Of a stretch of DNA of 32,186 bases, positions 517 through 24,152 are shown one piece after another (positions within the stretch are counted from its first letter, which is position 1; the number at the start of each line of letters is the position of its first letter). The position numbers and the translations under genes are program-made. Under the pieces are notes generated by a model. That model searched no databases and was not told the origin of the DNA. It worked only from the letters and a program-made list of their open reading frames with translations. Source of the DNA: Candidatus Omnitrophota bacterium (GTDB lineage Bacteria > Ratteibacteria > UBA8468 > B48-G9 > DTJG01); contig JAMWCC010000071.1 in the NCBI GenBank assembly GCA_023818375.1, positions 1 through 32,186 on the forward strand, in the 5' to 3' direction.

Positions 517-1995
517 ATGTTTTTATTTATTTTCATAGGTATGCCACTTGCGATTGCGGGAATTCTGCCTGTAATCAGCAGGATTTCCAGGAAATTTCTT
601 CCTGATTTTCTTGCTAATCTTTGTTTTGTAATCCTGCTAGCGGCGAGTATCTCAATTTATAATCTCTGGCCCGGGGCAGGAAGGTTTTCACATAACCTTG
701 GCTGGTTCGGTACAGATCTTAACATATCTCTAGTACTTGATGGTTTCAGTCTCTTGATGATTTTCACTGTTTGTATTGTTTCTCTTGCAGTGGGACTTTT
801 TTCGATAGATTATATCGAGCGCTACGGTTGGCGGTCGGCATATTATTCTATTTTGCTTGTACTTGTTGCTTCAATAAATGGAATTATTCTTACTTCTGAC
901 CTTTTTACCATGTATGTTTTCATAGAGGCTGCTGGGCTTGTTTGCTATGGTTTGGTTGCTTTTGGAAGAACGAGATTTGCAATTGAAGGTGCCATAAAAT
1001 ACCTTATCATTTCAGCGATTGCGTCTGTTTTTATTCTTCTTGGTATCGCTCTAATTTTTGTTAGGACTGGAAGCACAGATCTTAGGGTAATCGCTGCTTA
1101 TCCAGTAGCTGCATCAAAGGTCAATATAATTTTGTTCCTTGTTGGTTTTGGGGTGAAATGTGCGCTTGTTCCTTTTCACTTTTGGATGCCTGATGCATAT
1201 ACAGCTGCACCAGCTGTATTACCAGCAATGAGTTCCGGTATCTTCGTGAAGGCAGCGGGAGTTTACGCGTTGTGCAGGATTTTCTTTAATACATATGGTG
1301 TTAATCAGGCTGTTTTATCTGTCATGATATATCTTGGAATAGTTTCAATCCTCGTTGGTGCATTTCTTGCCCTGGGACAAACAAGACTGCGGAGAATGCT
1401 TGCTTATTCTTCCATAAGCCAGATGGGCTATATTGTACTTGGTCTGGGTATAGGTACACCGCTGGGGATTATTGGTGCTCTTCTTCATTTGTTTTTCCAT
1501 TCAGCTTTTAAGTCCCTTTTGTTTTTAAATGCAGGTGCAGTTGAATATGCTACAGGGACTGATGAAAGTAAAGAACTTGGTGGTCTTGGTGGAAGGATGC
1601 CATTTACGTCCACTACAAATATTATTGGTATTCTTTCAGCAGCCGGGGTGCCGCCGCTGAATGGCTTCTGGAGTAAATTAATTATTGTTATCGCTTTGTG
1701 GCAGGCAAAGATGTTTTTGTATGCTTTCATAGCAATATTTGCAAGTGTTCTTACTTTATGGTATTTACTCTTAATCCAAAGAAGGATATTTTTTGGAAAA
1801 TTAAACAAGTTGTTGGCAGAAGTTTATGAAGTTCCTTTTTGGATGAATTTATCAATGGTTGGATTGGCTCTGGTATGTGTATGGACGGGTGTTTCATTTG
1901 CATCTTTTATTTGCACTTGGCTACTCCCTGCTTCTGGTGTCTTGATTGATGGTGTTAAGGGGCAACTATTTATAATTGGGAGTCAATTCTTATGA
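517..1995 (+). CDS. Proton-conducting membrane subunit of hydrogenase (NuoM/NuoN/MrpD-like)
   Basis: A 492-residue polytopic membrane protein of the antiporter-like family shared by complex I, group 4 hydrogenases and Mrp antiporters. It keeps the two charged residues that define the channel: a glutamate at about residue 137 (TMYVFIEAAGLVCYG) and a lysine at about residue 214 (GVKCALVPFHFWMPDAY). The second half has the HLFFHSAFKSLLFLNAG motif with another buried lysine. The length is normal for NuoM/NuoN. The ATG follows AGGAGAAGGAC. The stop overlaps the next start as ATGA, so the two are probably translationally coupled. In the complex it should couple H2 chemistry at the peripheral arm to ion translocation. 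Whether it sits at the M, N or HyfB/D position cannot be decided from sequence alone. Confidence 0.9.
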   Translation: MFLFIFIGMPLAIAGILPVISRISRKFLPDFLANLCFVILLAASISIYNLWPGAGRFSHNLGWFGTDLNISLVLDGFSLLMIFTVCIVSLAVGLFSIDYIERYGWRSAYYSILLVLVASINGIILTSDLFTMYVFIEAAGLVCYGLVAFGRTRFAIEGAIKYLIISAIASVFILLGIALIFVRTGSTDLRVIAAYPVAASKVNIILFLVGFGVKCALVPFHFWMPDAYTAAPAVLPAMSSGIFVKAAGVYALCRIFFNTYGVNQAVLSVMIYLGIVSILVGAFLALGQTRLRRMLAYSSISQMGYIVLGLGIGTPLGIIGALLHLFFHSAFKSLLFLNAGAVEYATGTDESKELGGLGGRMPFTSTTNIIGILSAAGVPPLNGFWSKLIIVIALWQAKMFLYAFIAIFASVLTLWYLLLIQRRIFFGKLNKLLAEVYEVPFWMNLSMVGLALVCVWTGVSFASFICTWLLPASGVLIDGVKGQLFIIGSQFL

Positions 1996-2468
1996 CCAGT
2001 TTACTGATAGGGGCAGTATTGGTTTTTGCTTGTTTGGCTGTTTTTCTGAAAGACATGCTTAAAGCAGTATTGTGTCTATTAATCTCAAGTATATTTTTAG
2101 CAATTATCTTTTTCAGGCTGAATGCTCCTTTTGCGGGAGTTTTTGAAATTTCTGTCGTTGCTGGTTTGATTATGGTTCTTTTCATTATTACGATTTCTAT
2201 TGTCGGTCCACAAGATACAGTTTCTGAACCAACTGTTCCTATAGCAATTTTCCTTGTATTATTCATGATTTTTTCCTATCTAGTAAATGATGGTATCGTC
2301 CATTTGCTAACATCCGAAAAATTTTTAGCAAATTCCAAAGACTATAAAAGATTTGGTGAGGCATTGTGGTTAGGAAGGACTTTTGATATCGTCGGTCAGA
2401 TAAGTGTAATTTTTGCAGGTGTTTTTGTTGTTTTGTTGGTTGCCGGAAGGAGAAGGAATGGTAAATAA
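1992..2468 (+). CDS. NuoJ-like membrane subunit of hydrogenase
   Basis: A 158-residue protein with several hydrophobic helices that resembles NuoJ/MbhD-E, the subunit carrying the pi-bulge helix in complex I. The early helices are followed by a conserved-looking block (SVVAGLIMVLFIITISIVG) that matches the NuoJ TM3 region in position and character. A polar loop and a last helix ending in an Arg-rich tail (AGRRRNGK) follow. It starts inside the stop of the upstream antiporter subunit and overlaps the start of the NuoK-like gene, which is the usual J-K gene order. Its role is inferred from complex I: part of the proton path linking the interior cavity to the antiporter subunits. Confidence 0.85.
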   Translation: MTSLLIGAVLVFACLAVFLKDMLKAVLCLLISSIFLAIIFFRLNAPFAGVFEISVVAGLIMVLFIITISIVGPQDTVSEPTVPIAIFLVLFMIFSYLVNDGIVHLLTSEKFLANSKDYKRFGEALWLGRTFDIVGQISVIFAGVFVVLLVAGRRRNGK

Positions 2469-2775
2469 CAATTTAACGGATTGCTGGTTGCTTATGCATG
2501 GGGCTGCGGCACTTTTATTTATTGGTTTTTATTGTATCTTTGCGAGACGAAATATGATACGCCTTTTGATAGGGCTGGAAATTATATCAAAGGGAATATG
2601 CCTTCTTATAATTTGTGGTAGTTTTCCATCAGGAATACTTGTTGCTCAGGCACTTGTTATAACCATAATAGTTATTGAGGTTTGCTTGATGGCTGTTGGT
2701 CTTGCTTTGGTCATCAAAGCTTATAAGCAGGCTGGTAGTATTGATATTAGAAAATTTGCTAATCTGAAAGGTTGA
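2458..2775 (+). CDS. NuoK-like membrane subunit of hydrogenase
   Basis: A 105-residue, three-helix protein. I chose the ATG at 2458 because it follows GGAAGGAGAAGG and gives the normal NuoK length; an earlier in-frame start at 2413 would only add residues lying inside the nuoJ-like gene. Two buried glutamates essential in NuoK are present: E41 (LLIGLEIISKG) and E74 (IVIEVCLMAVGLAL), equivalent to E36 and E72 of the E. coli protein. It overlaps the end of the upstream gene by 11 bases. In complex I and in MBH-type hydrogenases (MbhG) this subunit forms part of the central proton relay, so the enzyme here should be ion-pumping. Confidence 0.9.
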   Translation: MVNNNLTDCWLLMHGAAALLFIGFYCIFARRNMIRLLIGLEIISKGICLLIICGSFPSGILVAQALVITIIVIEVCLMAVGLALVIKAYKQAGSIDIRKFANLKG

Positions 2776-2779
2776 CAAA

Positions 2780-3157
2780 ATGAGCAAAATAGATATATTA
2801 ATTTCACCACCTATTGCATTTTTGATAATGAGCCTTTTTTTTAGCGTTTTGTATATCTTAGCAGGAAAATTTGCTTTAACTACAAAAAGAAGCAAGGAGA
2901 AGGTTTCGACATATGCTTGTGGTGAAAACATCCCTGGTTTTAAATTTCAATTTGGTTATAATTTGTTTTTCGTTTTTGCATTGTTCTTTACCATTATGCA
3001 TGTTGCAGCACTTATTTTTGCGACTTTGCCATCGGGTTTACCTTTGGTGTATTTTGGTATTTTTTATCTTTTCGCAATTTTTCTTTCAGTAATCAGTATG
3101 CTTTCTTACATTGAATCAGATTATGTAATTTCTGAAAGTGAGGAAGAAAGTGATTGA
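2780..3157 (+). CDS. NuoA-like membrane subunit associated with a [NiFe]-hydrogenase
   Basis: A 125-residue, three-helix protein with the NuoA layout: an N-terminal helix, then a loop with the cysteine motif YACGENIPG, then the block FGYNLFFVFALFFTIMHVA and a third helix, ending in an acidic tail (SESEEESD). NuoA proteins have Y-x-C/S-G, then Fxxx-F-Y and the acidic FDVE motif. Here the last motif reads MHVA, so both conserved acids are gone. The gene sits between the K-like and B-like genes with gaps of only a few bases. MBH and E. coli Hyf hydrogenases lack a recognised NuoA, so its presence beside a Ni-binding large subunit is unusual. The family call is fairly secure; the function of the altered loop is unknown. 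Confidence 0.8.
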   Translation: MSKIDILISPPIAFLIMSLFFSVLYILAGKFALTTKRSKEKVSTYACGENIPGFKFQFGYNLFFVFALFFTIMHVAALIFATLPSGLPLVYFGIFYLFAIFLSVISMLSYIESDYVISESEEESD

Positions 3158-3581
3158 GAGGTTGATAAAGTGGTCGAGGCTAAAGTCTCCGTGGATACTT
3201 CATTTAAACACTGGTGCATGTAATGCCTGTGATATTGAAATTGTGGATGCCCTTACACCAAGATTTGATGTTGAAAGATTCGGAATTTTGCTGAAGGCAT
3301 CTCCAAGACATGCGGACGTGATAGTATGTACCGGTCCTGTGACAAGGCAGATGAAGGACAGGATTATCAGGATTTATGAGCAAACTCCAGATCCCAAGTT
3401 TGTCATTGCTGTTGGAGCCTGTGCCATGTCTGGTTGTGTATACAGAGGTGCATACAATGTTATTGGAGGGGTGGACCAGGTTATTCCTGTTGATATATAT
3501 GTTCCTGGATGCCCACCAAGGCCAGATGCAATTATCGACGGCGTAGTAAAATTATTACAAAAGCTGGAGAGTTCTAAATGA
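3150..3581 (+). CDS. [NiFe]-hydrogenase small subunit (NuoB/HycG-like)
   Basis: A 143-residue iron-sulfur subunit that carries the proximal [4Fe-4S] cluster and passes electrons to or from the Ni-Fe site. The cluster ligands are visible as C24 and C27 (GACNACDIE), C91 (GACAMSGC) and C121 (PGCPPRP). The CxxC arrangement of the first pair is typical of hydrogenases; NuoB of complex I has adjacent cysteines instead. I prefer the GTG at 3150, which follows AGGAAG at suitable spacing and overlaps the stop of the NuoA-like gene by eight bases. An upstream GTG at 3138 has no SD and would add four residues. The next gene starts in its stop codon (ATGA). Confidence 0.92.
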   Translation: MIERLIKWSRLKSPWILHLNTGACNACDIEIVDALTPRFDVERFGILLKASPRHADVIVCTGPVTRQMKDRIIRIYEQTPDPKFVIAVGACAMSGCVYRGAYNVIGGVDQVIPVDIYVPGCPPRPDAIIDGVVKLLQKLESSK

Positions 3582-4051
3582 ACCAGGCAGAAATTTTTGA
3601 AAAAATTAGAACAAACCTATCTGCACAAATAACTGATATTTCTATGCCATCTCCAAGAAGGATCTTTGTTTCTGTTGCTCCAGAAAAACTTATTGAAACA
3701 TTGAAAATATTGAAAGATGATTTTGGTTTCTACCATCTTTCAACGATATCAGGTCTTGACAAAATAACAGGCTTTGAAGTTCTTTACCATCTTGCAAATT
3801 CGTTTGTCAGTTTGACCGTGAGGGTTCAAATCGACAGAGCTAAGCCTGAGATAATCTCGATATGTGAAGTTATCCCGGGTGCAATTCTTTACGAACGCGA
3901 AATTCAGGATATGTTTGGTATAAAAGTTATAAATATTCCTGATTCGAGACCGCTTGTTTTACCAGATGACTGGCCAGAGGGTGAATATCCATTGAGAAAG
4001 GACTGGAATTATCAACCGCCAGCAGAAACAATTCCAGGGGAAGAACAATGA
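3578..4051 (+). CDS. NuoC-like 30 kDa subunit of hydrogenase
   Basis: A 157-residue soluble protein related to NuoC and to the N-terminal part of HycE/HyfG. The family signature appears in the second half: YEREIQDMFGI followed by PLVLPDDWPEGEYPLRKDW. In E. coli hydrogenases 3 and 4 this domain is fused to the large subunit; here it is a separate gene, as in many complex I and MBH operons. It overlaps the small-subunit gene upstream and the large-subunit gene downstream by four bases each. It has no cofactor-binding motif and is structural in known complexes, packing against the small and large subunits. Confidence 0.92.
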   Translation: MNQAEIFEKIRTNLSAQITDISMPSPRRIFVSVAPEKLIETLKILKDDFGFYHLSTISGLDKITGFEVLYHLANSFVSLTVRVQIDRAKPEIISICEVIPGAILYEREIQDMFGIKVINIPDSRPLVLPDDWPEGEYPLRKDWNYQPPAETIPGEEQ

Positions 4052-5247
4052 AAAAAATAAAAATTCCAATAGGACCGCAACATCCTGCGTTGAAAGAACC
4101 CATTAGTTTAAGGATAACGGTTGAGGGTGAAGTGATAAAAGATGCAGATGTCAGACTTGGTTATAATCATCGTGGAATAGAAAAACTTGCAGAAAGCAGA
4201 ACGTATGTTCAAAATATCTATCTAATGGAAAGAATCTGTGGGATTTGTTCACATTCACATACAACCTGTTTTGTCCAGGGGGTTGAATCGCTTTGTGGAC
4301 TTGAGGTTCCTAAAAGAGGTTTATTTATAAGGATGCTTGTTTGTGAGCTTGAAAGAATCCATAGCCATTATCTCTGGTTGGGTGTTGCTGCTCATGAGGC
4401 AGGATTTGATTCGCTGTTCATGTACACATGGCGCGACAGGGAAGTGGTAATGGATCTTCTGGAAATTATTTCAGGCAACAGGGTTCATTATGCAATAAAT
4501 ACAATTGGCGGGGTCAGGAGAGATTTAAGTGAGGTACAGAAAGAAAAAATTCTTGAGGGAATACAATTTTTGAAAAAGAGAATGGAGTATTACACCAATC
4601 TTGGTACTACAGAACCATCATTTGTTGCAAGGGTTTCGGGTGTTGGTATTCTTCCAAAGGAAAAGGCAATGTCTCTGTGTGCTGTTGGTCCTACATTGAG
4701 AGCATCCGGCATTGCTTCTGACATAAGAAAAGATGATCCTTATGCTGCCTATGATGAAATACCATTTAGTGTTTGCACAGCTACCAGTTGCGATGTTTTG
4801 GGAAGGGTTGTGGTGAGAATTAAGGAAACAATGGAATCAATAAAAATTGTTGAATACTTGGTAAAAAATCTGCCAAGTGGTGAAATAAAAGTACGGGCAC
4901 CAAGAAAAGTAAAGGAAGGAGAGGCCGTAAGCAGATATGAAGCTCCGCGTGGAGAAAATATTCATTACATAAAAAGCAACGGAACTGATAAGCCTGAAAG
5001 AGTAAAAGTAAGAGCTCCTACGCTTGCAAATTATCCTGCAACAATAGAGATGTTGAAAAGCGGATTCATTGCAGATATTCCCTTAATATTTGCAGCTATA
5101 GATCCGTGTATCTGTTGTGCAGAAAGATTTGTTGAGGTGATTGATACCAAAAATGAAAATACACAAGTGTTAACGATGGCAGAAATAAAAAAAAGATATT
5201 CTAAAAGCCAAGGGCTAAAGAAAGGAAGTTCAGTATGGCCATTATGA
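4048..5247 (+). CDS. [NiFe]-hydrogenase large (catalytic) subunit, group 4 (NuoD/HycE-like)
   Basis: A 399-residue catalytic subunit. The L1 motif RICGIC gives C64 and C67 and the L2 motif DPCICCAER gives C354 and C357; these four cysteines hold the Ni-Fe(CN)2CO centre. Complex I NuoD lacks them, so this enzyme should make or use H2. Other family landmarks are GPQHPALKEP near the N-terminus, LGYNHRGIEK, ELERIHSHYLWLG and GNRVHYAINTIGGVRRD. After the L2 motif there are 39 more residues, like the HycE extension that is cut off after the arginine of DPCxxCxxR once nickel is inserted. The HycI-like protease gene three genes downstream fits this. Direction and electron partner (probably ferredoxin) are inferred. 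Confidence 0.95.
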   Translation: MKKIKIPIGPQHPALKEPISLRITVEGEVIKDADVRLGYNHRGIEKLAESRTYVQNIYLMERICGICSHSHTTCFVQGVESLCGLEVPKRGLFIRMLVCELERIHSHYLWLGVAAHEAGFDSLFMYTWRDREVVMDLLEIISGNRVHYAINTIGGVRRDLSEVQKEKILEGIQFLKKRMEYYTNLGTTEPSFVARVSGVGILPKEKAMSLCAVGPTLRASGIASDIRKDDPYAAYDEIPFSVCTATSCDVLGRVVVRIKETMESIKIVEYLVKNLPSGEIKVRAPRKVKEGEAVSRYEAPRGENIHYIKSNGTDKPERVKVRAPTLANYPATIEMLKSGFIADIPLIFAAIDPCICCAERFVEVIDTKNENTQVLTMAEIKKRYSKSQGLKKGSSVWPL

Positions 5248-6206
5248 AAGCATTGGTTTATCTTTTTGTCTATCCTGGGCTTTTGTTTCTTTTTGTTTAT
5301 TCAACATTCTGTGAATGGTTTGATAGAAAACTATACGCAAGACTCCAAAACAGAGTTGGTCCTGCTTATACAGGAAGAGCAGGAATTCTTCAGCCGATTG
5401 CAGACTTTTTAAAATTGCTTTTTAAAGAAGATATAATTCCAGAAAATGCAGACAGGATAATATTTTCAATTTTGCCAGTGATTGGAGTTGCAACCGTTGC
5501 TACTGCTGGTCTTTATCTTCCATTGTGGAATTACGATGTATCCAGAACTACGTTCAACTCATTTCAGGGAGACATTATTGTTGTTCTTTATCTTTTATGT
5601 TTATCCACCGTCATACTTTTTCTTTCTGGCTGGCACTCAACAAATTTTTTCTCAACCATTGGAGGCGTGAGAGTCTTAACAATGCTTTTTGGCTATGAGG
5701 TTCCATTGTTCCTTTCAGTTTTAAGTCCTGCAATTGTGGCTGATTCATGGCGACTTGCCGAAGTAGCGAATTTTTACCAGGATTTTCCGTTTCTTTTGTT
5801 TTTTCAAATTATAGGACTTTTTGTTGCACTGATTTCATTACAGGCAAAACTTGAAAGAACGCCATTTGATATTCCACACGCGGAAACTGAGATTGTTGGT
5901 GGTACTTTTACCGAATTCTCAGGGAAAAAACTTGCTTTTTTTAGGTTAATGACTGATATTGAAATGGTAGTTGGAAGCGGTTTGATAGCAACGGTTTTTA
6001 TGGCAGGCTTTGCCGGCGGTCTTATGGGTTCACTTGCAAGGTTTGTTTTAAAAACCTTGATAGTTATTGCAATTCTTTCAATCATTCGGGCGACTTTTTC
6101 CCGGATTAGGGTTGATCAGATGGTTGTTTTTTCGTGGAAATACCTGACGCCGCTTGCAATTTTACAGTTGTTGGTAAGCATAATAATTAAAGGGGTTATA
6201 AAATGA
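5235..6206 (+). CDS. NuoH-like membrane subunit of hydrogenase (HyfC/HycD/MbhM type)
   Basis: A 323-residue membrane protein that anchors the catalytic arm. Family motifs are present: RLQNRVGPAYTGRAGILQP in the first cytoplasmic loop, followed by LADxxKLL-like residues (IADFLKLLFKED), and FDIPHAETEIVGG in a later acidic loop that corresponds to the quinone or ion-channel entry region of NuoH. The start at 5235 follows AGGAAG with eight bases of spacing and overlaps the large-subunit gene by 13 bases. The stop overlaps the next start (ATGA). The length is normal. Its role in coupling redox chemistry to ion movement is inferred from complex I and MBH structures. Confidence 0.92.
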   Translation: MAIMKALVYLFVYPGLLFLFVYSTFCEWFDRKLYARLQNRVGPAYTGRAGILQPIADFLKLLFKEDIIPENADRIIFSILPVIGVATVATAGLYLPLWNYDVSRTTFNSFQGDIIVVLYLLCLSTVILFLSGWHSTNFFSTIGGVRVLTMLFGYEVPLFLSVLSPAIVADSWRLAEVANFYQDFPFLLFFQIIGLFVALISLQAKLERTPFDIPHAETEIVGGTFTEFSGKKLAFFRLMTDIEMVVGSGLIATVFMAGFAGGLMGSLARFVLKTLIVIAILSIIRATFSRIRVDQMVVFSWKYLTPLAILQLLVSIIIKGVIK

Positions 6207-6604
6207 AATTAAGACCTGGTGCATTTATACCTGAACTGCTTAAGCATTTGTTTAAAAAGCCAGCAACTGTAATGTACCCTTTTGAGAAGCTCAATATACC
6301 AAAGGATTTCAGGGGTACTCCTGTACTAAAGCCAGAGTTATGTATAGTTTGTAGGGCTTGTGTAAGGGATTGTCCTGCATTTGCAATTGAGATAGAAACA
6401 CTTTCTGAAGAAGAGAAAAAATACAAAATGACAATTCACAATGATAGATGTATTCACTGTGCACAGTGTGTAGAATCTTGCCCAACCAAGGCGCTTTTTA
6501 TGGACGATGGTTATGAGCTTTCAACTGATAGCAGGCGAAAGCTTAAAATTGCATATGTGTATTCAAGACCTAAAAAGACCGCACAGCAGTCCAGTGAAAA
6601 ATAA
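6203..6604 (+). CDS. NuoI-like 2x[4Fe-4S] ferredoxin subunit of hydrogenase (HycF/HyfH/MbhN type)
   Basis: A 133-residue electron-transfer subunit with two complete CxxCxxCxxxC motifs: C47, C50, C53, C57 (CIVCRACVRDC) and C83, C86, C89, C93 (CIHCAQCVESC). The N-terminus (KLRPGAFIPELLKHLFKKPATVMYPFE) is the amphipathic membrane-associated segment typical of NuoI/HyfH. It ends the block of structural genes. No NuoE, NuoF or NuoG-like gene lies in the window downstream, so electrons probably come from a soluble ferredoxin, or from a partner encoded elsewhere or upstream. The start lies in the stop codon of the NuoH-like gene. Confidence 0.93.
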   Translation: MKLRPGAFIPELLKHLFKKPATVMYPFEKLNIPKDFRGTPVLKPELCIVCRACVRDCPAFAIEIETLSEEEKKYKMTIHNDRCIHCAQCVESCPTKALFMDDGYELSTDSRRKLKIAYVYSRPKKTAQQSSEK

Positions 6605-6619
6605 AAGAGATTTGTTTTA

Positions 6620-7114
6620 ATGAGCTTTTGGAAAAAGGAAATTTACAATAGAGTTAAAAATTTTAAAAAGCTTGTTATCTTATGCGTAGGCAATCCAGAG
6701 GCATCTGATGATGGTGTCGGTGTAGAAATTGGAAAAAGGCTGCTAGAAAATCTGTTTGATAGCCCTGATGTTTTCATCTTTAATTGTTATACTGCGGCAG
6801 AAAATTTTACTTCACCGGTAAAAAAAATAATGCCCAGCCACATCTTGATCATAGATTCATGTGTAGCTGGTAAGGTGCCAGGTACAGTTTCAGTTTTTTG
6901 TCCGGATGATTTAAAAGAAGAAGATATTTCGTCTCATAGGATACCAGTACAATTATTATCAAGATACCTTAAGAATGAGACTGGAGCAGATGTTATAATT
7001 ATTGGGATAGAGCCCGAGATTCTTGGTAAAGGACGACATTTAAGTGGTTCTGTTAAGAACGCGGCTGATGAGATTGTCGAGTTTTTGTTGAAAATTTTTA
7101 GAAAGAACTGGTGA
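6620..7114 (+). CDS. hycI: Hydrogenase maturation protease (HycI/HyaD family)
   Basis: A 164-residue endopeptidase of the M52 family that removes the C-terminal extension of the large subunit after nickel insertion. The nickel-sensing residues are visible in GNPEASDDGVGVEIG near the N-terminus and in the IIDSC strand that follows, and a later SSHRIPVQLL block matches the HycI-type SSHxxPL motif. The length fits the family (about 150-165). The gene lies 15 bases after the ferredoxin subunit and before hypA. The large subunit keeps a 39-residue tail beyond its L2 motif, so substrate and protease are encoded together. The SD is weak. The HycI subtype is inferred from the group 4 context. Confidence 0.88.
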   Translation: MSFWKKEIYNRVKNFKKLVILCVGNPEASDDGVGVEIGKRLLENLFDSPDVFIFNCYTAAENFTSPVKKIMPSHILIIDSCVAGKVPGTVSVFCPDDLKEEDISSHRIPVQLLSRYLKNETGADVIIIGIEPEILGKGRHLSGSVKNAADEIVEFLLKIFRKNW

Positions 7115-7124
7115 TGGTGATATA

Positions 7125-7385
7125 ATGCAAGAGTTAAGTATGATTGAAAGCCTAAGAATTTTGCTTAAAAATGTTTGCGAAAGGGAAAACGCCAAGAAAG
7201 TTATCTCGATCGAAATGACAGTTCATCCTTACAGCTGTCTTGATGAAGATAATTTGAATTTCATGTATCTATCAATTCTTGGAGACGATCCAATTTTGAA
7301 GGATGCCAAAATTAAGATTAAGAGAAGTGAAAAAGTACAACAGAGACAATTTATAGTTAACAATATTGAAATTGAGGTTGATTGA
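7125..7385 (+). CDS. hypA: Truncated HypA-like protein lacking the zinc ribbon and His2
   Basis: An 86-residue protein that aligns with the N-terminal and extreme C-terminal parts of HypA, the nickel metallochaperone for hydrogenase. It has the M-x-E-L-S-M start, the VxxIxxxVxxxSCLxxxxLxF pattern and a final strand ending in IEIEVD. Normal HypA is about 113 residues and carries two CxxC motifs forming a zinc ribbon before that final strand; here the stretch is missing and only RSEKVQQRQF remains. The second residue is Gln (CAA) instead of the nickel-binding His. A stop codon (TAA) just upstream in frame excludes a longer start. The frame is clean, so this is a shortened but apparently intact gene. 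It may act as a HypB partner or be functionally degenerate. Confidence 0.78.
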   Translation: MQELSMIESLRILLKNVCERENAKKVISIEMTVHPYSCLDEDNLNFMYLSILGDDPILKDAKIKIKRSEKVQQRQFIVNNIEIEVD

Positions 7386-7392
7386 AAAAACC

Positions 7393-8055
7393 ATGACTTT
7401 CAAAAAAGTAAAGATTGAACAAAACCTGTTTTCACAGAACGAGGAAATTGCCAGAGAAAACAAAAGTATTTTTACAAAACATAAAATTTTGTCTTTGAAT
7501 TTTATGGGAGCACCTGGTTGTGGAAAGACTTCTATTATTGAAAAGCTTATTCCAGAACTTTTAGCTAAAAAAATATATTGCGGGGTGATAGAAGGTGATA
7601 TCGCAGGTAGTTTTGATAGCGAGAGACTGGAACATTATGGAATACCCTTGGTACAGATTAATACAGGTGGTGCATGCCATCTTGATGCACTCATGATTAA
7701 GAAAGGAATGGAGAACCTGCCGCTTAAACAGCTGAATGTTGTTATTATTGAAAATGTGGGAAATCTTGTATGTCCTGCTGAATTTGAACTTGGTGTGGAT
7801 TGTAATATAACTGTTGCCAGTATTACAGAAGGCGAAGAAAAACCATTAAAATATCCGTTGATGTATTCAGTCTCTGAGCTTGTGCTTCTTAATAAAATTG
7901 ATCTGATAAATGTTGTTGATTTCAGTATTGAAAAATTTACCCGATTTCTAAGGCAGATCAATCCAAAGGCTGAACTTATTGCTGTTTCTGGAAGAACCGG
8001 TATTAATATAAAAGCCATAAAGGAATATGTGCTAAAAAAGATGGGACTCTTATGA
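7393..8055 (+). CDS. hypB: Hydrogenase nickel incorporation GTPase HypB
   Basis: A 220-residue SIMIBI-class GTPase that drives nickel insertion into the large subunit. The P-loop is GAPGCGKTS (residues 39-47). GDIAGSFDSERL follows as the switch region, then NTGGACHLDALMI with the Cys-His metal site at the dimer interface, ENVGNLVCPAEFELG, and the base-specificity motif LNKIDL. The N-terminal CxxCGC nickel site and histidine-rich region of some HypB proteins are absent. I chose the ATG at 7393 because the following residues match the normal HypB start; TTG codons at 7366-7378 are in frame but overlap hypA and lack an SD. The stop overlaps hypF by four bases. Confidence 0.93.
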   Translation: MTFKKVKIEQNLFSQNEEIARENKSIFTKHKILSLNFMGAPGCGKTSIIEKLIPELLAKKIYCGVIEGDIAGSFDSERLEHYGIPLVQINTGGACHLDALMIKKGMENLPLKQLNVVIIENVGNLVCPAEFELGVDCNITVASITEGEEKPLKYPLMYSVSELVLLNKIDLINVVDFSIEKFTRFLRQINPKAELIAVSGRTGINIKAIKEYVLKKMGLL

Positions 8056-10369: not shown

Positions 10370-10609
10370 ATGTGTCTTGCAATTCCGATGAAGATTATGA
10401 AGAAGAAAGGAAATACAGCGGTTGTGTCTCTTGGTGGTGTTGAAAGAACCATAGATGTTTCGCTTGTCAAGGGTATCAAGACTGGTGATTATGTGATTGT
10501 TCATGCTGGTTTTGCAATTCAGAAGCTTAATAAAAAAGAGGCAAGAGAAACCTTGAAACTTTTTGATAAGATGAAATATGGAACATATAGAAAAATTCAG
10601 AAATCCTGA
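10370..10609 (+). CDS. hypC: Hydrogenase assembly chaperone HypC/HybG
   Basis: A 79-residue chaperone that shuttles the Fe(CN)2CO unit from HypD to the large subunit. The protein starts with the invariant MCLAIP, whose Cys2 is the functional residue. It continues with a small beta-barrel of the OB type containing GDYVIVHAGFAIQKL, the usual HypC motif. The ATG follows GGGAG. The 3' end overlaps the start of hypD by 32 bases, and the C-terminal helix is of normal length. Confidence 0.95.
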   Translation: MCLAIPMKIMKKKGNTAVVSLGGVERTIDVSLVKGIKTGDYVIVHAGFAIQKLNKKEARETLKLFDKMKYGTYRKIQKS

Positions 10610-11672
10610 TTACATCAAGGCACTTGTTTTGCAAATACATACTGTATCAAAAAAGATTAAGAAAGAGGTGAAACTGATGGAAGTGTGCGGGACACATACT
10701 ATGGCAATTGCCCGATGGGGTATTAGGAAGATGCTTCCAGAAAATGTTAGTCTTATTTCCGGTCCAGGATGTCCAGTTTGCGTTACACCAAACCAGTTTA
10801 TTGATACCGCAATTGAGATTTCAAAATTGGGTAATGTAAAAATTGCTACATTTGGAGATATGTACAGGGTTCCTTCAGGAAAAAAATCACTGGAAAAACA
10901 ATCAGCAAATGGAGCGGTTGTGGATATAGTGTATTCTCCGCTTGATGCTCTTAAAATTGCAGAGAAAAATCCCGAAAAGAAAATTGTTTTTTTGGCTGTA
11001 GGTTTTGAGACAACTTCACCTTTGACAGCTAAGGTTATTCTTTATGCGAGAAACCGGAAACTGAAGAATTTCTTTGTTCTTTCGGGACACAAACTTATTC
11101 CGCCAGCAATGGTCGCTCTTGTAAAAGACAAGACGCATCACATCGATGGGTTTTTATGTCCTGGACATGTAAGTGCCATAATTGGATCTGAACCATATAG
11201 AGTTTTTCCAAACAACTACGGAGTGCCTTGCGTAATTTCTGGATTTGAAGTATGTGATATCTTACAATCAATACTGATGTTGCTTGAAATGATTTGTGGG
11301 AAAAGGAAATTGTCAGTTGAGATTCAATACACAAGATGTGTGCTTAGATATGGAAATACAGTTGCACAAAAGATTATTGCCGAGGTTTTTAATGTTGTTG
11401 ATGTGGACTGGAGAGGTATAGGAATGATAGAACAAAGTGGATTGGCAATTAATAGAAAATTTACTGAATTTGATGCGTTTTCTAATTTTAAATTGGATGT
11501 GAAAATTTCCAGTGAGGCAAAAAGTTGTATCTGCGGACAGATATTAAAAGGTCTGAAAACACCCTTAGATTGTAAATTATACAGAAGGTTATGTACTCCT
11601 GAAAGTCCTATTGGACCTTGTATGGTTTCTTCTGAAGGAACCTGTGCTGCTTATTATAACTATGAAAGATGA
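10578..11672 (+). CDS. hypD: Hydrogenase maturation protein HypD
   Basis: A 364-residue iron-sulfur protein that serves as scaffold for assembly of the Fe(CN)2CO group together with HypC. The conserved cysteines are in CGTHTMAIARWGIR and in GPGCPVCVT, and the [4Fe-4S] ligands lie in the C-terminal block CICGQILKG...DCKLYRRLCTPESPIGPC. GHVSAIIG is also present. The start MEHIEKFRNP matches the usual HypD opening (MxxIxxFRDP), so the overlap with hypC appears real. The coding end overlaps the start of hypE by 11 bases. Length and motifs are complete. Confidence 0.96.
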   Translation: MEHIEKFRNPDYIKALVLQIHTVSKKIKKEVKLMEVCGTHTMAIARWGIRKMLPENVSLISGPGCPVCVTPNQFIDTAIEISKLGNVKIATFGDMYRVPSGKKSLEKQSANGAVVDIVYSPLDALKIAEKNPEKKIVFLAVGFETTSPLTAKVILYARNRKLKNFFVLSGHKLIPPAMVALVKDKTHHIDGFLCPGHVSAIIGSEPYRVFPNNYGVPCVISGFEVCDILQSILMLLEMICGKRKLSVEIQYTRCVLRYGNTVAQKIIAEVFNVVDVDWRGIGMIEQSGLAINRKFTEFDAFSNFKLDVKISSEAKSCICGQILKGLKTPLDCKLYRRLCTPESPIGPCMVSSEGTCAAYYNYER

Positions 11673-12678
11673 AATAATTCTTCTTGCACATGGGACAGGT
11701 GGAAAACAAAGCAGGATGCTTATTGAAAATTTAATTCTGAAATATTTACATGACCCCGCATTAAGATTCTTACCCGACTCTGCCTCAATAAAGGTTCCTC
11801 GTATCAACGATGAAATCTGTTTTACAACCGATTCATTCGTTGTCAGTCCTCTTTTTTTCCCTGGCGGAGATATCGGGAAATTAGCAATCTGTGGTACAGT
11901 TAATGATCTTGCTGTTTGTGGTGCCCAAGCTTTGTATATGTCATGTTCTTTAATAATTGAGGAAGGTTTGAGGTTTTCAGAACTAGAAAGGATTTTAAGA
12001 TCAATGGCGACTACTGCTGGTAAAACAGGTGTAAGGATTGTGACAGGGGATACAAAGGTTGTTGAAAAAGGAAAATGCGATGGGATCTTTATCAACACCT
12101 GTGGCATAGGTGTTAGAAAAAGTCATGTCTCTTTGGGTCTGGAACGAATCAAACCGGGAGATGCAATAATTCTAAGTGGGGTGCCTGGAATGCATGAGTT
12201 GGCAATTATATGTACCAGAGAAAATATCAGATTCAAATCTTCTTTGAAAAGCGATTGTGCTCCAATTAAAGACCTTGTTTTTCAAGTTTTGAGTGAATCT
12301 GTTGATGTAAAATTTATGAGGGATCCTACGAGGGGTGGCCTTGCAACGACATTAAATGAGATTGCTTCAGAATGTAAGTTCGGAATAAGAATTTATGAAA
12401 GTAAGATTCCCCTTGTAAAATCTGTCAAGTATTTGTGTGAAATTCTTGGGTTTGACGTAATGAATCTTGCTTGTGAGGGTAGGGTGGTTATGATAGCGAA
12501 ATATGATGATGCAGAAAAAATAGTATCGACTATGAGAAAACATCCACTTGGAAGAAAAGCAAATATAATTGGGGTAATTACTGAGAGATTTCCTGGAAAA
12601 GTAATTTTGGAAACGGTTAATGGTTCTGAAAGGTTTATAATGATGCCATCAGGAAGACAGTTACCAAGAATCTGCTGA
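11662..12678 (+). CDS. hypE: Hydrogenase maturation protein HypE
   Basis: A 338-residue PurM-like ATPase that dehydrates the thiocarboxamide on its own C-terminal cysteine to thiocyanate, supplying cyanide for the active site. The HypE opening MKDEIILLAHGTGGKQS starts at 11662; a longer frame from 11611 only runs into hypD. The ATP-binding segments GDIGKLAICGTVNDLAVCGA and MRDPTRGGLATTLNE are present. The protein ends in LPRIC, the invariant tail whose last cysteine is carbamoylated by HypF. It is the last gene of the hydrogenase operon; the next gene is convergent and may end only five bases beyond. Confidence 0.96.
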   Translation: MKDEIILLAHGTGGKQSRMLIENLILKYLHDPALRFLPDSASIKVPRINDEICFTTDSFVVSPLFFPGGDIGKLAICGTVNDLAVCGAQALYMSCSLIIEEGLRFSELERILRSMATTAGKTGVRIVTGDTKVVEKGKCDGIFINTCGIGVRKSHVSLGLERIKPGDAIILSGVPGMHELAIICTRENIRFKSSLKSDCAPIKDLVFQVLSESVDVKFMRDPTRGGLATTLNEIASECKFGIRIYESKIPLVKSVKYLCEILGFDVMNLACEGRVVMIAKYDDAEKIVSTMRKHPLGRKANIIGVITERFPGKVILETVNGSERFIMMPSGRQLPRIC

Positions 12679-21002: not shown

Positions 21003-24000
21003 TTATTCCTCAATGATTGTTAAACCATCTGCCTGAGCAATTGCTCTTGGTACAACAAGTGAACCAGGGGATTTTGCCCAGAGTTGCGGTATCGAGTAAA
21101 AATAAGGAAAAGAAAAACCATTTCCTTCAATCCTTGCTATTGTGCCATCTTCGCCTGGATTTAGCTTGATAGTGTATGTTCCCTGTTTGCTTATATCTAC
21201 CTTTCTGATTTTGGACGGATCTGTTGGGAAAAGACCTGTGTAAAGCGTTAGTATTTTATGGTTATAGGTATCAAACACTTCTAAGTCCAGGGTTTTTGTT
21301 CCTTTTGGAATATAGAAATATACCGGCGATTGTGTTAGTCCATCCTGATTTAGAAAATAAGTATGCGGATGAAATCTTGAATATTTACCTGTCTGAACAT
21401 CAAAATACGGAGTGGTAAGACAGGCTAGATTTCCACCATATCCGAGGATAAATTTGTATGTTCCGGGTCTGGTTGCTTTTATTGAAACGTCCACAAGTTG
21501 AATTTTTGAACCATTTGGAAGTGTGGCTTCTTTTGATGGCTGTTTAGTCGTTGTTTCATCTATTATCTTTACCCACTTCTTTGCCTTTGTATCCCAGTAT
21601 TCCAAGCCATAGACAAAATCTCTTGCTCTGTAATAACCGTCATCAGGATTATAAGGCCAGTAGATTTTAAATCCAATTATTTCCCCAGCAGATTTTGCAA
21701 CAGTGAGAAATTGAACCGGCTTTTGATAACCACTATTATAACCGAAGGGTGAATCAACCGGTGTCCTTGAATAATAGTTGCAGGGACTGGGAAATTCATC
21801 CTGAAATTCTTTAATAATAACAAGGTCATTGAGGTCTATATCTGAGGCTTTTTTACCATTTATCAGCGTGGTGTCCTTAAAATATGTAACAGGAACATAT
21901 TTCCAGAAATCAAGAACCTGGTTCCACCATTTCTGTGTTTCTTGGTGAGTATAGTGGGCAGGACCACTGGCAAATTCACCCGCTGCTTTTCTCACGTCAT
22001 TGGTACCAAAAACCCTCCTTACCACAGCATGCATGGCTACCATATAAGACATCTGTCCTTTCCATACATATTCCCTCATTTCAGAAGAATCCGGTTTCGC
22101 TTTTCCGCTTTCTTCAAGGTAGTGGTAGTACCAGTACTGTTTTACATCATCAATTCTTTTTTGAGCCATTGGTTCTTTCAGTGGATCAATCTTTTTATCA
22201 GCTTCATCTATCATCCTTATTGCCTTTGCCCAGGAGTTTGGTCCATTTACAGGAAGATTATCAACAAGCATAAAATCATAATACTGTTTCATTTCCTTCC
22301 ATCCGCTTCCAAATGCTTTCTGAAACCATCTGTCCCTTATTTTTTCAAGCTCAGTAAGTGTCATCTCAGGATTCCATAGGACTTTGCACATTAAATAATA
22401 TGCAAGTCCATACTTGCCAAAGTTAAAATCGGTTTCGCATGAAAGCGCTTTGATTCCTGCATCATAGGTTTTTTTCAGATCATCAAGGATACTTTTTGGT
22501 GAAGCACTCCACCTTGCAGGAATCCCAGCAGTGCCCGGATCCTGATAATAGGCAAGACTTATAATTCTGTAATCACCTGAAGGTTCCCGTGGCAGCATTA
22601 CCTGAAATGCCTTTGCCATATCTAGTTGGCTTTTGAAATTTTTCCATTTTCCCCAGCCGCGATTTTTTGGATAACCTGCTATCATCACTCTTATTCTCGG
22701 GTCAAGATTAAAGTTTGGTGGCACATCATGGTAATTGTAGCTGTACCCGCTACTTCTTACCATCTCTTTTTTTGATTTCCCTGTTGCAGTTATTCTTTTT
22801 TCTGGCGGAAGTGAGTCAAACCATTTATCGTACTCATGCAAAAGCCAGTTTGCAAAACCAAAAACAGTGTCTGATGCTGAATTCGGGTCCCAGGTTTCAA
22901 CTGGCTGGTTCAATCCATTGTATCCATGTAACACATAGGGTTTTCCGAATGAAATTCCTTCCTGTTTGCAGTAATCAGGGTACCAGTTTTTATATCTCAT
23001 GTACTTACCAACAACAGCATAACCACCACCATCTTCTGGTTCATGACCAAAAATAAATATCTCATCTGGATTTTTTTCAAAATGTTTTTCTGACTGTTTT
23101 ATCATTTCTTCAAGAATAAGTTGTCTGACAAGTGGAACAGATAAATCAAGATTAGCACCTATTTCAAGAAGATTTTGTTCAACCCATTCTTTTCCATTTG
23201 AAATATAAACTTTTCCTGCCTGCGGAGTCTTTTCTGGATCGCTGTTGATCCACATTTCGCCTTTATTCTCACTGGACGCAGGTGGTCTTTCTGAAGAAAC
23301 TCCAATCGTTATTTTTGGCACAAGAAATCCTTCTGTAGTATTTGTTTTCTTCATCGCTTCAATTACTGCTTTATGATATGCCTGCATTGCGTGACCTGGA
23401 AAGCTTGGCATAGATTTTCCGTAGATTCTTGCTCCTATTGCCCATCTATTCCAACTTATATCAACAGGTTCATCCTCAGGATCTGACGTTTGGCCCATTA
23501 TTGTACCTACTCCATAGCCTTGACCGCTTGTGGGCCATAATGCTCTTAGGTAAAAGCCGGGTCTACCTGCTTTTTTAATATCAAAAACAAGTGGTTTTGT
23601 TCTGTAATCTGGCGCATAGATCCAGTTGGGTCCCATTCCAAGGATTTCATAATCAACACTTTCAAGCAGATCAACAATACCTGCAATAATTCCGTCAGGT
23701 TTGTTGGCAATGACAATGACCCTGTCTTTTTCGCTTCTGATGAAGTAAGCCTCCTGATTGTTATAGGTATCCTTCCCGTTATTAGAAAGAGCCTTTTTTA
23801 TTTCGGGGTCGTTCTTAAATTCCTGTGGTGCGCAATCAACCGTGAGAAGTACTATTCCTTTTGATATTTCTGTGTCGCACCTTATCGGAATTTTTTTTCC
23901 TGTCATCTTTTCAATGGCTTCCTGTATAAATGTTGCGGAGCGTCTCATTGTTGCTTGGGGTGAAGAATCATACCATAAAAGGGGTTTCGTAAGGTCAATG

Positions 24001-24152
24001 TTATAACCCATTTTTGTCTCTGCATTATAATAAATAACGATGCCTGGCAAACTTTCTGCGGACATTGATGGTGTAATCATTTTATAGCTGGCTGCTTCAA
24101 GCAACAATATCTGGGTCAACACCGCAAAAAAACACAGAACTATTCTTTTCAT
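21003..24152 (-). CDS. Large secreted glycosidase-like protein (DUF4838-like)
   Basis: A 1049-residue exported protein with signal peptide MKRIVLCFFAVLTQILLLEA. Residues about 75-200 resemble the N-terminal domain of GH67/GH20-type glycosidases: an amphipathic helix with ATFIQEAIEKMTGKKIPI, then YFIRSEKDRVIVIANKPDG and a helix containing LLESVDYEILGMGPNWIYAP. The central region has IFIFGHEPEDGGG and many aromatic residues, as in DUF4838 proteins. The C-terminal part (about 760-1049) looks like beta-sandwich modules. I infer action on a polysaccharide or glycoprotein outside the cytoplasm, but no catalytic pair is identified. The ATG follows AAAGGAG. It lies between a URO-D-like gene and a Gfo/Idh/MocA gene. 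Confidence 0.65.
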   Translation of the reverse strand: MKRIVLCFFAVLTQILLLEAASYKMITPSMSAESLPGIVIYYNAETKMGYNIDLTKPLLWYDSSPQATMRRSATFIQEAIEKMTGKKIPIRCDTEISKGIVLLTVDCAPQEFKNDPEIKKALSNNGKDTYNNQEAYFIRSEKDRVIVIANKPDGIIAGIVDLLESVDYEILGMGPNWIYAPDYRTKPLVFDIKKAGRPGFYLRALWPTSGQGYGVGTIMGQTSDPEDEPVDISWNRWAIGARIYGKSMPSFPGHAMQAYHKAVIEAMKKTNTTEGFLVPKITIGVSSERPPASSENKGEMWINSDPEKTPQAGKVYISNGKEWVEQNLLEIGANLDLSVPLVRQLILEEMIKQSEKHFEKNPDEIFIFGHEPEDGGGYAVVGKYMRYKNWYPDYCKQEGISFGKPYVLHGYNGLNQPVETWDPNSASDTVFGFANWLLHEYDKWFDSLPPEKRITATGKSKKEMVRSSGYSYNYHDVPPNFNLDPRIRVMIAGYPKNRGWGKWKNFKSQLDMAKAFQVMLPREPSGDYRIISLAYYQDPGTAGIPARWSASPKSILDDLKKTYDAGIKALSCETDFNFGKYGLAYYLMCKVLWNPEMTLTELEKIRDRWFQKAFGSGWKEMKQYYDFMLVDNLPVNGPNSWAKAIRMIDEADKKIDPLKEPMAQKRIDDVKQYWYYHYLEESGKAKPDSSEMREYVWKGQMSYMVAMHAVVRRVFGTNDVRKAAGEFASGPAHYTHQETQKWWNQVLDFWKYVPVTYFKDTTLINGKKASDIDLNDLVIIKEFQDEFPSPCNYYSRTPVDSPFGYNSGYQKPVQFLTVAKSAGEIIGFKIYWPYNPDDGYYRARDFVYGLEYWDTKAKKWVKIIDETTTKQPSKEATLPNGSKIQLVDVSIKATRPGTYKFILGYGGNLACLTTPYFDVQTGKYSRFHPHTYFLNQDGLTQSPVYFYIPKGTKTLDLEVFDTYNHKILTLYTGLFPTDPSKIRKVDISKQGTYTIKLNPGEDGTIARIEGNGFSFPYFYSIPQLWAKSPGSLVVPRAIAQADGLTIIEE

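Follow-up and report, generated by a model that had tools for sequence, protein, structure and literature searches.

A HypA variant lacking both the zinc ribbon and the His2 nickel ligand, encoded next to hypB in a bacterial [NiFe]-hydrogenase operon

The window analyzed here, a stretch of 32,186 nucleotides, belongs to contig C36 (58,070 bases) of a metagenome-assembled genome of a Candidatus Omnitrophota bacterium (2.07 Mb in 129 contigs, 89% complete). It encompasses a set of complex-I-like hydrogenase genes followed by genes for hydrogenase maturation, among which is the hypA that is the subject of this work:

517 to 6604, plus strand: complex-I-like hydrogenase genes (NuoL/M-, J-, K-, B-, C-, H- and I-like) flanking the large subunit gene
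2780 to 3157, plus strand: A-like gene of the complex-I-like set, assigned by position alone
4048 to 5247, plus strand: [NiFe]-hydrogenase large subunit, group 4/NuoD-like, with RICGIC and DPCICC intact and the C-terminal extension present
6620 to 7114, plus strand: HycI-type hydrogenase maturation protease (profile match)
7125 to 7385, plus strand: hypA, ribbon-less, 86 aa, with Gln2 and Gln75 (ORF, profiles, model, alignment)
7125 to 7133, plus strand: N-terminal nickel motif, here Met-Gln-Glu (ATG CAA GAG), Met-His-Glu in 23 of 23 order relatives
7236 to 7244, plus strand: Cys38-Leu39-Asp40, where Asp40 aligns to Asp40 of H. pylori HypA, a proposed ligand of nickel (PMC5557546)
7323 to 7352, plus strand: short turn, residues 67-76 including Gln75, in place of the CxxC...CxxC ribbon of other HypAs (model, alignment)
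7393 to 8055, plus strand: hypB GTPase, with P-loop, GGACH and LVCPAEF metal-site residues and N-terminal V-x-I docking motif (PMC3287977)
8052 to 10352, plus strand: hypF (profile match)
10370 to 10609, plus strand: hypC
10578 to 11672, plus strand: hypD (profile match)
11662 to 12678, plus strand: hypE (profile match)

The hypA open reading frame starts with ATG and encodes 86 amino acids, from MQELS to the terminal RQFIVNNIEIEVD, with no CxxC among them. The ATG of hypB, at 7393, lies seven bases past the hypA stop, and the operon hycI-hypA-hypB-hypF-hypC-hypD-hypE is intact, with the same order across the genus and relatives. A hidden upstream start or alternative frame that would restore His2 is ruled out, as none exists: between the ATG at 7125 and the stop before it, the frame reads KFLERTGDGDI. 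A scan for viral contigs gave no match. Elsewhere in the window, the minus strand encodes a complete serpin-family protease inhibitor in this bacterial genome (16747-17985, Pfam 375 bits) and, within a gene cluster, a protein of 1049 aa whose start is signal-like and for which Pfam gave no match at E 0.001 (21003-24152).

Two features have been taken to define HypA: the N-terminal Met-His-Glu nickel motif has been termed invariant in the family (PMC5557546), the zinc site of two CxxC motifs has been stated for all HypA proteins (PMC7055735), and a 2019 review attributes both sites to all of them. The window protein departs from both and is, therefore, best called a HypA variant, HypA-like in its working as far as the anatomy shows; the hallmarks of HypA/HybF that it does present are the alpha/beta fold and the association with hypB and other hyp genes. 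With the canonical proteins (H. pylori 2KDX/6G81; T. kodakarensis 3A43, the HypAB-Ni complex 5AUN and the HyhL-HypA complex 5YXY), it shares the core, the positions of Met1, Glu3 and Asp40, the adjoining hypB, and a match to profile positions 1-68. Unlike them, it has no CxxC...CxxC ribbon and, hence, neither a zinc site nor ribbon histidines, one of which, His98 of T. kodakarensis, contributes to the nickel site of the HypAB complex; moreover, it carries Gln2 in place of the imidazole ligand, Gln in place of the conserved Glu75, and an extra Cys38. In the open-access papers searched, we found no published account of a HypA without the zinc domain, although prior notice elsewhere is possible.

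The Pfam HypA profile gives the window protein 28.7 bits (cut-off 28.9) over profile positions 1-68 of 112, and NCBIfam TIGR00100 gives 29.7 bits (cut-off 88.1) over positions 1-68 of 116, with both matches significant but short of the curated cut-offs and ending at the point where the ribbon would start. The majority of order relatives score above the Pfam cut-off, and every ribbon-less HypA that was scored falls under that of TIGR00100, so that some of these proteins are likely to be unnamed or mis-annotated. The AlphaFold2 model (input alignment of 14 relatives, pLDDT 89.7) predicts helices at residues 2-21 and 41-52 and strands at 23-33, 62-67 and 76-85; with all these elements present, the entire alpha/beta core is retained. 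When the model was compared with the PDB using Foldseek, the 14 best matches were all HypA chains (probability 1.00), the top ones including 3a43, 6g81, 5aun and 5yxy, at query-normalized TM of about 0.8. An eight-residue turn connects the last two strands of the model, at the position of the ribbon in full-length HypA; in terms of the model, the ribbon deletion is the removal of an inserted domain that leaves the core in place. The initial annotation of this DNA, made from the sequence alone, had described a HypA without the ribbon and without His2 adjoining hypB, and this description is borne out by the ORF, the profiles, the model and the operon; its further remark that the first and last strands of the fold were kept falls short, the model showing the whole core.

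The ribbon-less form occurs in 7 of the 8 genomes of the genus, the window's included, and in 24 of the 28 genomes of the order (Ratteibacteria/Omnitrophota-like MAGs), namely, the window's own and 23 found via PF01155 and read as sequence (L003-L008, L011-L016, L019-L023, L026-L029, L034, L035). As for the four remaining order genomes, in G001 hypB stops at the contig edge where hypA would be expected, and in G019, G020 and G023 no HypB was detected either. The order relatives share with the window protein a length class of 84-100 aa, a PYSCLDEENLNF-type motif, a REYIVENIEIEV-type final strand and membership in the same clade; they differ from it in that all 23 have both His2 and Glu75. The nearest organisms by kinship with full-length HypA (about 113-122 aa, with both CxxC and His2) are 4 genomes of the same class, drawn from two further families (L042-L045). 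A pattern scan of contigs returned only loci of the same ribbon-less type, in records that were mostly Omnitrophota/Ratteibacteria or untitled, with one Elusimicrobia and one Vermiphilus.

A broader survey took in 386 genomes. Of these, 162 lie outside the phylum and bear a HypA, and the 21 weakest-scoring HypAs among these were re-searched and read; 13 turned out to be ribbon-less, 79-98 aa long, and spread over 11 unrelated bacterial families (L100, L102, L105-L112, L114, L116, L117), with hypB, hypC, hypF or hycI within the fetched stretch in 12 cases. These proteins share with the window HypA the core and the excision of the ribbon at the same place and differ from it in the junction sequences, in the presence of His2 and, mostly, in the lack of Cys38. 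The collection of homologues with the same gap, which the initial annotation had called for, thus yielded 23 in the order and 13 in unrelated families: a form that is the only one found in a bacterial order and is present in 13 of the 162 HypA-bearing genomes sampled outside the phylum. In a tree built on 83 core columns, the order forms a single clade (support 100/100), and the other ribbon-less HypAs are scattered in several places. From this placement, several independent ribbon losses seem likely but not proven, a single origin of all ribbon-less HypAs being disfavored by the tree although one clade is not rejected by the AU test (p 0.31). Hydrogenase type was also considered as the cause of ribbon loss and dropped: group 4 enzymes are present in ribbon-less genomes, and several of these (G002, G005, G022, G025, G193, G317, G332) also have high-scoring large subunits, so there is no simple link. 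Zinc-site cysteine mutants of HypA are reported to leave 9-60% of activity (PMC7055735). The natural occurrence of ribbon-less HypAs suggests that the zinc domain is dispensable for the core role of HypA and that these proteins can be regarded as natural experiments.

The substitution at position 2 is another matter. The other 23 order members agree fully at six columns (M1, H2, E3, S37, E75 and E82), and the window HypA departs at two of them, with Q in place of both H2 and E75; in a leave-one-out comparison, no other order member breaks more than one invariant column, and 21 of the 23 break none. His2 is kept, in addition, in 13 of the 13 ribbon-less HypAs elsewhere and in all full-length HypAs read. 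Glu75, replaced by Gln only in the window, aligns with the acidic residue that often opens the last strand of full-length HypAs. Position 38 is Cys in 22 of the 23 order relatives and His in the remaining one, and Asp40 is mostly kept within the order. Judging from these alignments, the ribbon loss and Gln2 have separate histories: the former is order-wide and recurrent with His2 kept, and the latter is private to the window genome, accompanied by the change of Glu75 to Gln, which is absent from the initial annotation. That annotation asked the right question, namely, whether this HypA acts only in docking HypB or nickel takes another route, but took the two losses as one event; ribbon loss alone does not imply lost nickel binding. 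The identity of hypA to its counterpart in the sister genome is 69% (hypB 71, hypF 68, hypC 65, hypD 70, hypE 71), and its dN is 0.18 compared with 0.18-0.23 for the neighbors, with dS saturated so that dN/dS is no more than indicative. The window HypB breaks 0 of 46 order-invariant columns, the rest of the operon's proteins being average. Given that hypA evolves at a rate like that of its neighbors and HypB is unbroken, Gln2 and Gln75 are, to the extent that sequence comparison can tell, no sign of general decay; a pseudogene is ruled out by the ordinary substitution rate and the intact length.

The presumptive partners of this HypA are conserved. HypB retains its metal-site residues and the docking motif; compensation through an N-terminal Cys- or His-rich nickel site in HypB was dropped because none was seen in the window or relatives. 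On contig C12, the genome encodes another group 4 large subunit, its ligands intact, and RICGIC and DPC.CC are kept in both large subunits, ruling out the loss of the nickel need in the target enzyme. The second hydrogenase (G000 contig C12, 498-9054, L153) is accompanied by Mrp-antiporter-like genes and by genes resembling those for the beta and gamma chains in soluble (sulf)hydrogenases. The search for a second full-length HypA or SlyD, also proposed initially, found neither in the 89% complete genome: there was no second HypA in a PF01155 search at E up to 10 and no FKBP_C/SlyD match over the cut-off (best own-genome match 15.6 bits vs 21.1). With the assembly at this level of completeness, either protein could sit in the missing part.

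In characterized HypAs, nickel is bound by the amino terminus, His2, Glu3 and, probably, Asp40 (PMC5557546, PMC7055735), HypB reaches the large subunit HycE only with HypA (PMC7055735), and HypB binding to HypA needs the N-terminal hydrophobic-x-hydrophobic motif of HypB (PMC3287977). On balance, we lean toward a genuine, maintained HypA that docks HypB to the hydrogenases and serves here mainly as an adaptor, with nickel supplied by HypB or held weakly by remaining ligands. A HypA that lost the zinc-ribbon insertion and kept the alpha/beta core would pair with the GTPase HypB and bring it to the immature large subunits of both group 4 [NiFe]-hydrogenases. Most ribbon-less HypAs could still hold nickel in their N-terminal Met-His-Glu clamp; here, that clamp has lost its imidazole, along with the order-invariant Glu75, and HypA would most likely work mainly as a docking adaptor for HypB. 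With the imidazole lost, nickel would be held either at HypB's own metal site or, weakly, by the remaining HypA ligands, the amino terminus, Glu3, Asp40 and the order-specific Cys38, whose conservation makes it a plausible candidate for an extra metal ligand. Nickel carriage, HypA expression and docking are what we infer here. The existence of a Met-Gln-Glu member makes an old question testable: must HypA carry nickel, or is bringing HypB enough?

A stricter version, which we regard as less likely than not, is that this HypA is a metal-free adaptor that does no more than dock HypB on the hydrogenase precursor, with nickel passing from the site in the HypB G-domain into the enzyme. Should this be the case, a metallochaperone step thought to be universal for [NiFe]-hydrogenases would be absent in this species. 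The H2A mutant of H. pylori HypA, in which nickel binding is abolished, retains HypB binding yet shows less than 2.5% of hydrogenase activity (PMC5557546). This counts against the adaptor reading in general, as docking is not known to be enough by itself.

It is also possible, if less than probable, that, across the order, ribbon-less HypA carries nickel in the ordinary way, using Met-His-Glu with Asp40 and perhaps Cys38, and that the window allele is weakened or recently damaged, the loss being tolerated, for example, where nickel is plentiful. The universal retention of His2 in the other ribbon-less HypAs, the joint loss of two invariant residues only in the window HypA, and the partial rescue of hypA or hypB mutants by added nickel (PMC3287977) are all in line with such damage; the normal rate and length, the absence of any further broken conserved column, and the full conservation of the hydrogenase and HypB speak against it. 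Quite unlikely, in our estimate, is the arrival of nickel by a route independent of HypA, through a SlyD-like or other donor, with HypA vestigial. The missing nickel ligand would fit such a route, as would the order genomes without detectable HypA or HypB that nonetheless encode [NiFe] large subunits (two in G023, which is 90% complete, and one in G020), but no donor of the FKBP_C/SlyD type scores over the cut-off in the window's genome, and hypA keeps its place in the operon and evolves like its neighbors.

Errors of sequencing or consensus in the metagenome assembly, the true protein being MHE...RE, are highly improbable as the source of Gln2 and Gln75: it is true that the assembly is a MAG in 129 contigs and that a single base separates each changed codon from its ancestral form (CAA vs CAT/CAC and CAA vs GAA), but two independent errors would have had to hit two codons among the six best conserved while leaving the frame intact, and the neighboring genes show no excess of odd changes. 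Assembly deletion or a frameshift in this contig as the cause of the missing ribbon has next to no probability, with nothing found in its favor and the same short form present in 23 other order genomes and recurring with other junctions in 13 genomes from 11 unrelated families; assembly error, which the initial annotation had named as its own refutation, is thus excluded for the ribbon and, short of strict exclusion, unlikely for codon 2.

Several observations on related genomes concern the wider hydrogenase maturation machinery. The [NiFe] large subunits of G020 (L145) and G023 (L157, L158), where HypA and HypB were undetected, have intact ligand motifs. Three genomes of the same class (G034, G031 and G032, with loci L043, L044 and L045, respectively) encode full-length HypA, but none has a HypB that scores above the TIGR00073 threshold, and the [NiFe] large subunits detected in them are few or absent; the HypA genes of L044 and L045 have HycI-like and ferredoxin-like neighbors. 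In family f3 of the order (L122, L126, L127, L129, L136, L137, L144), HypB is fused to a C-terminal HycI-type protease in frames of 370-394 aa, as in L126, with Pfam cobW at 36-192 and HycI at 254-373, a physical link between nickel delivery and C-terminal cleavage.
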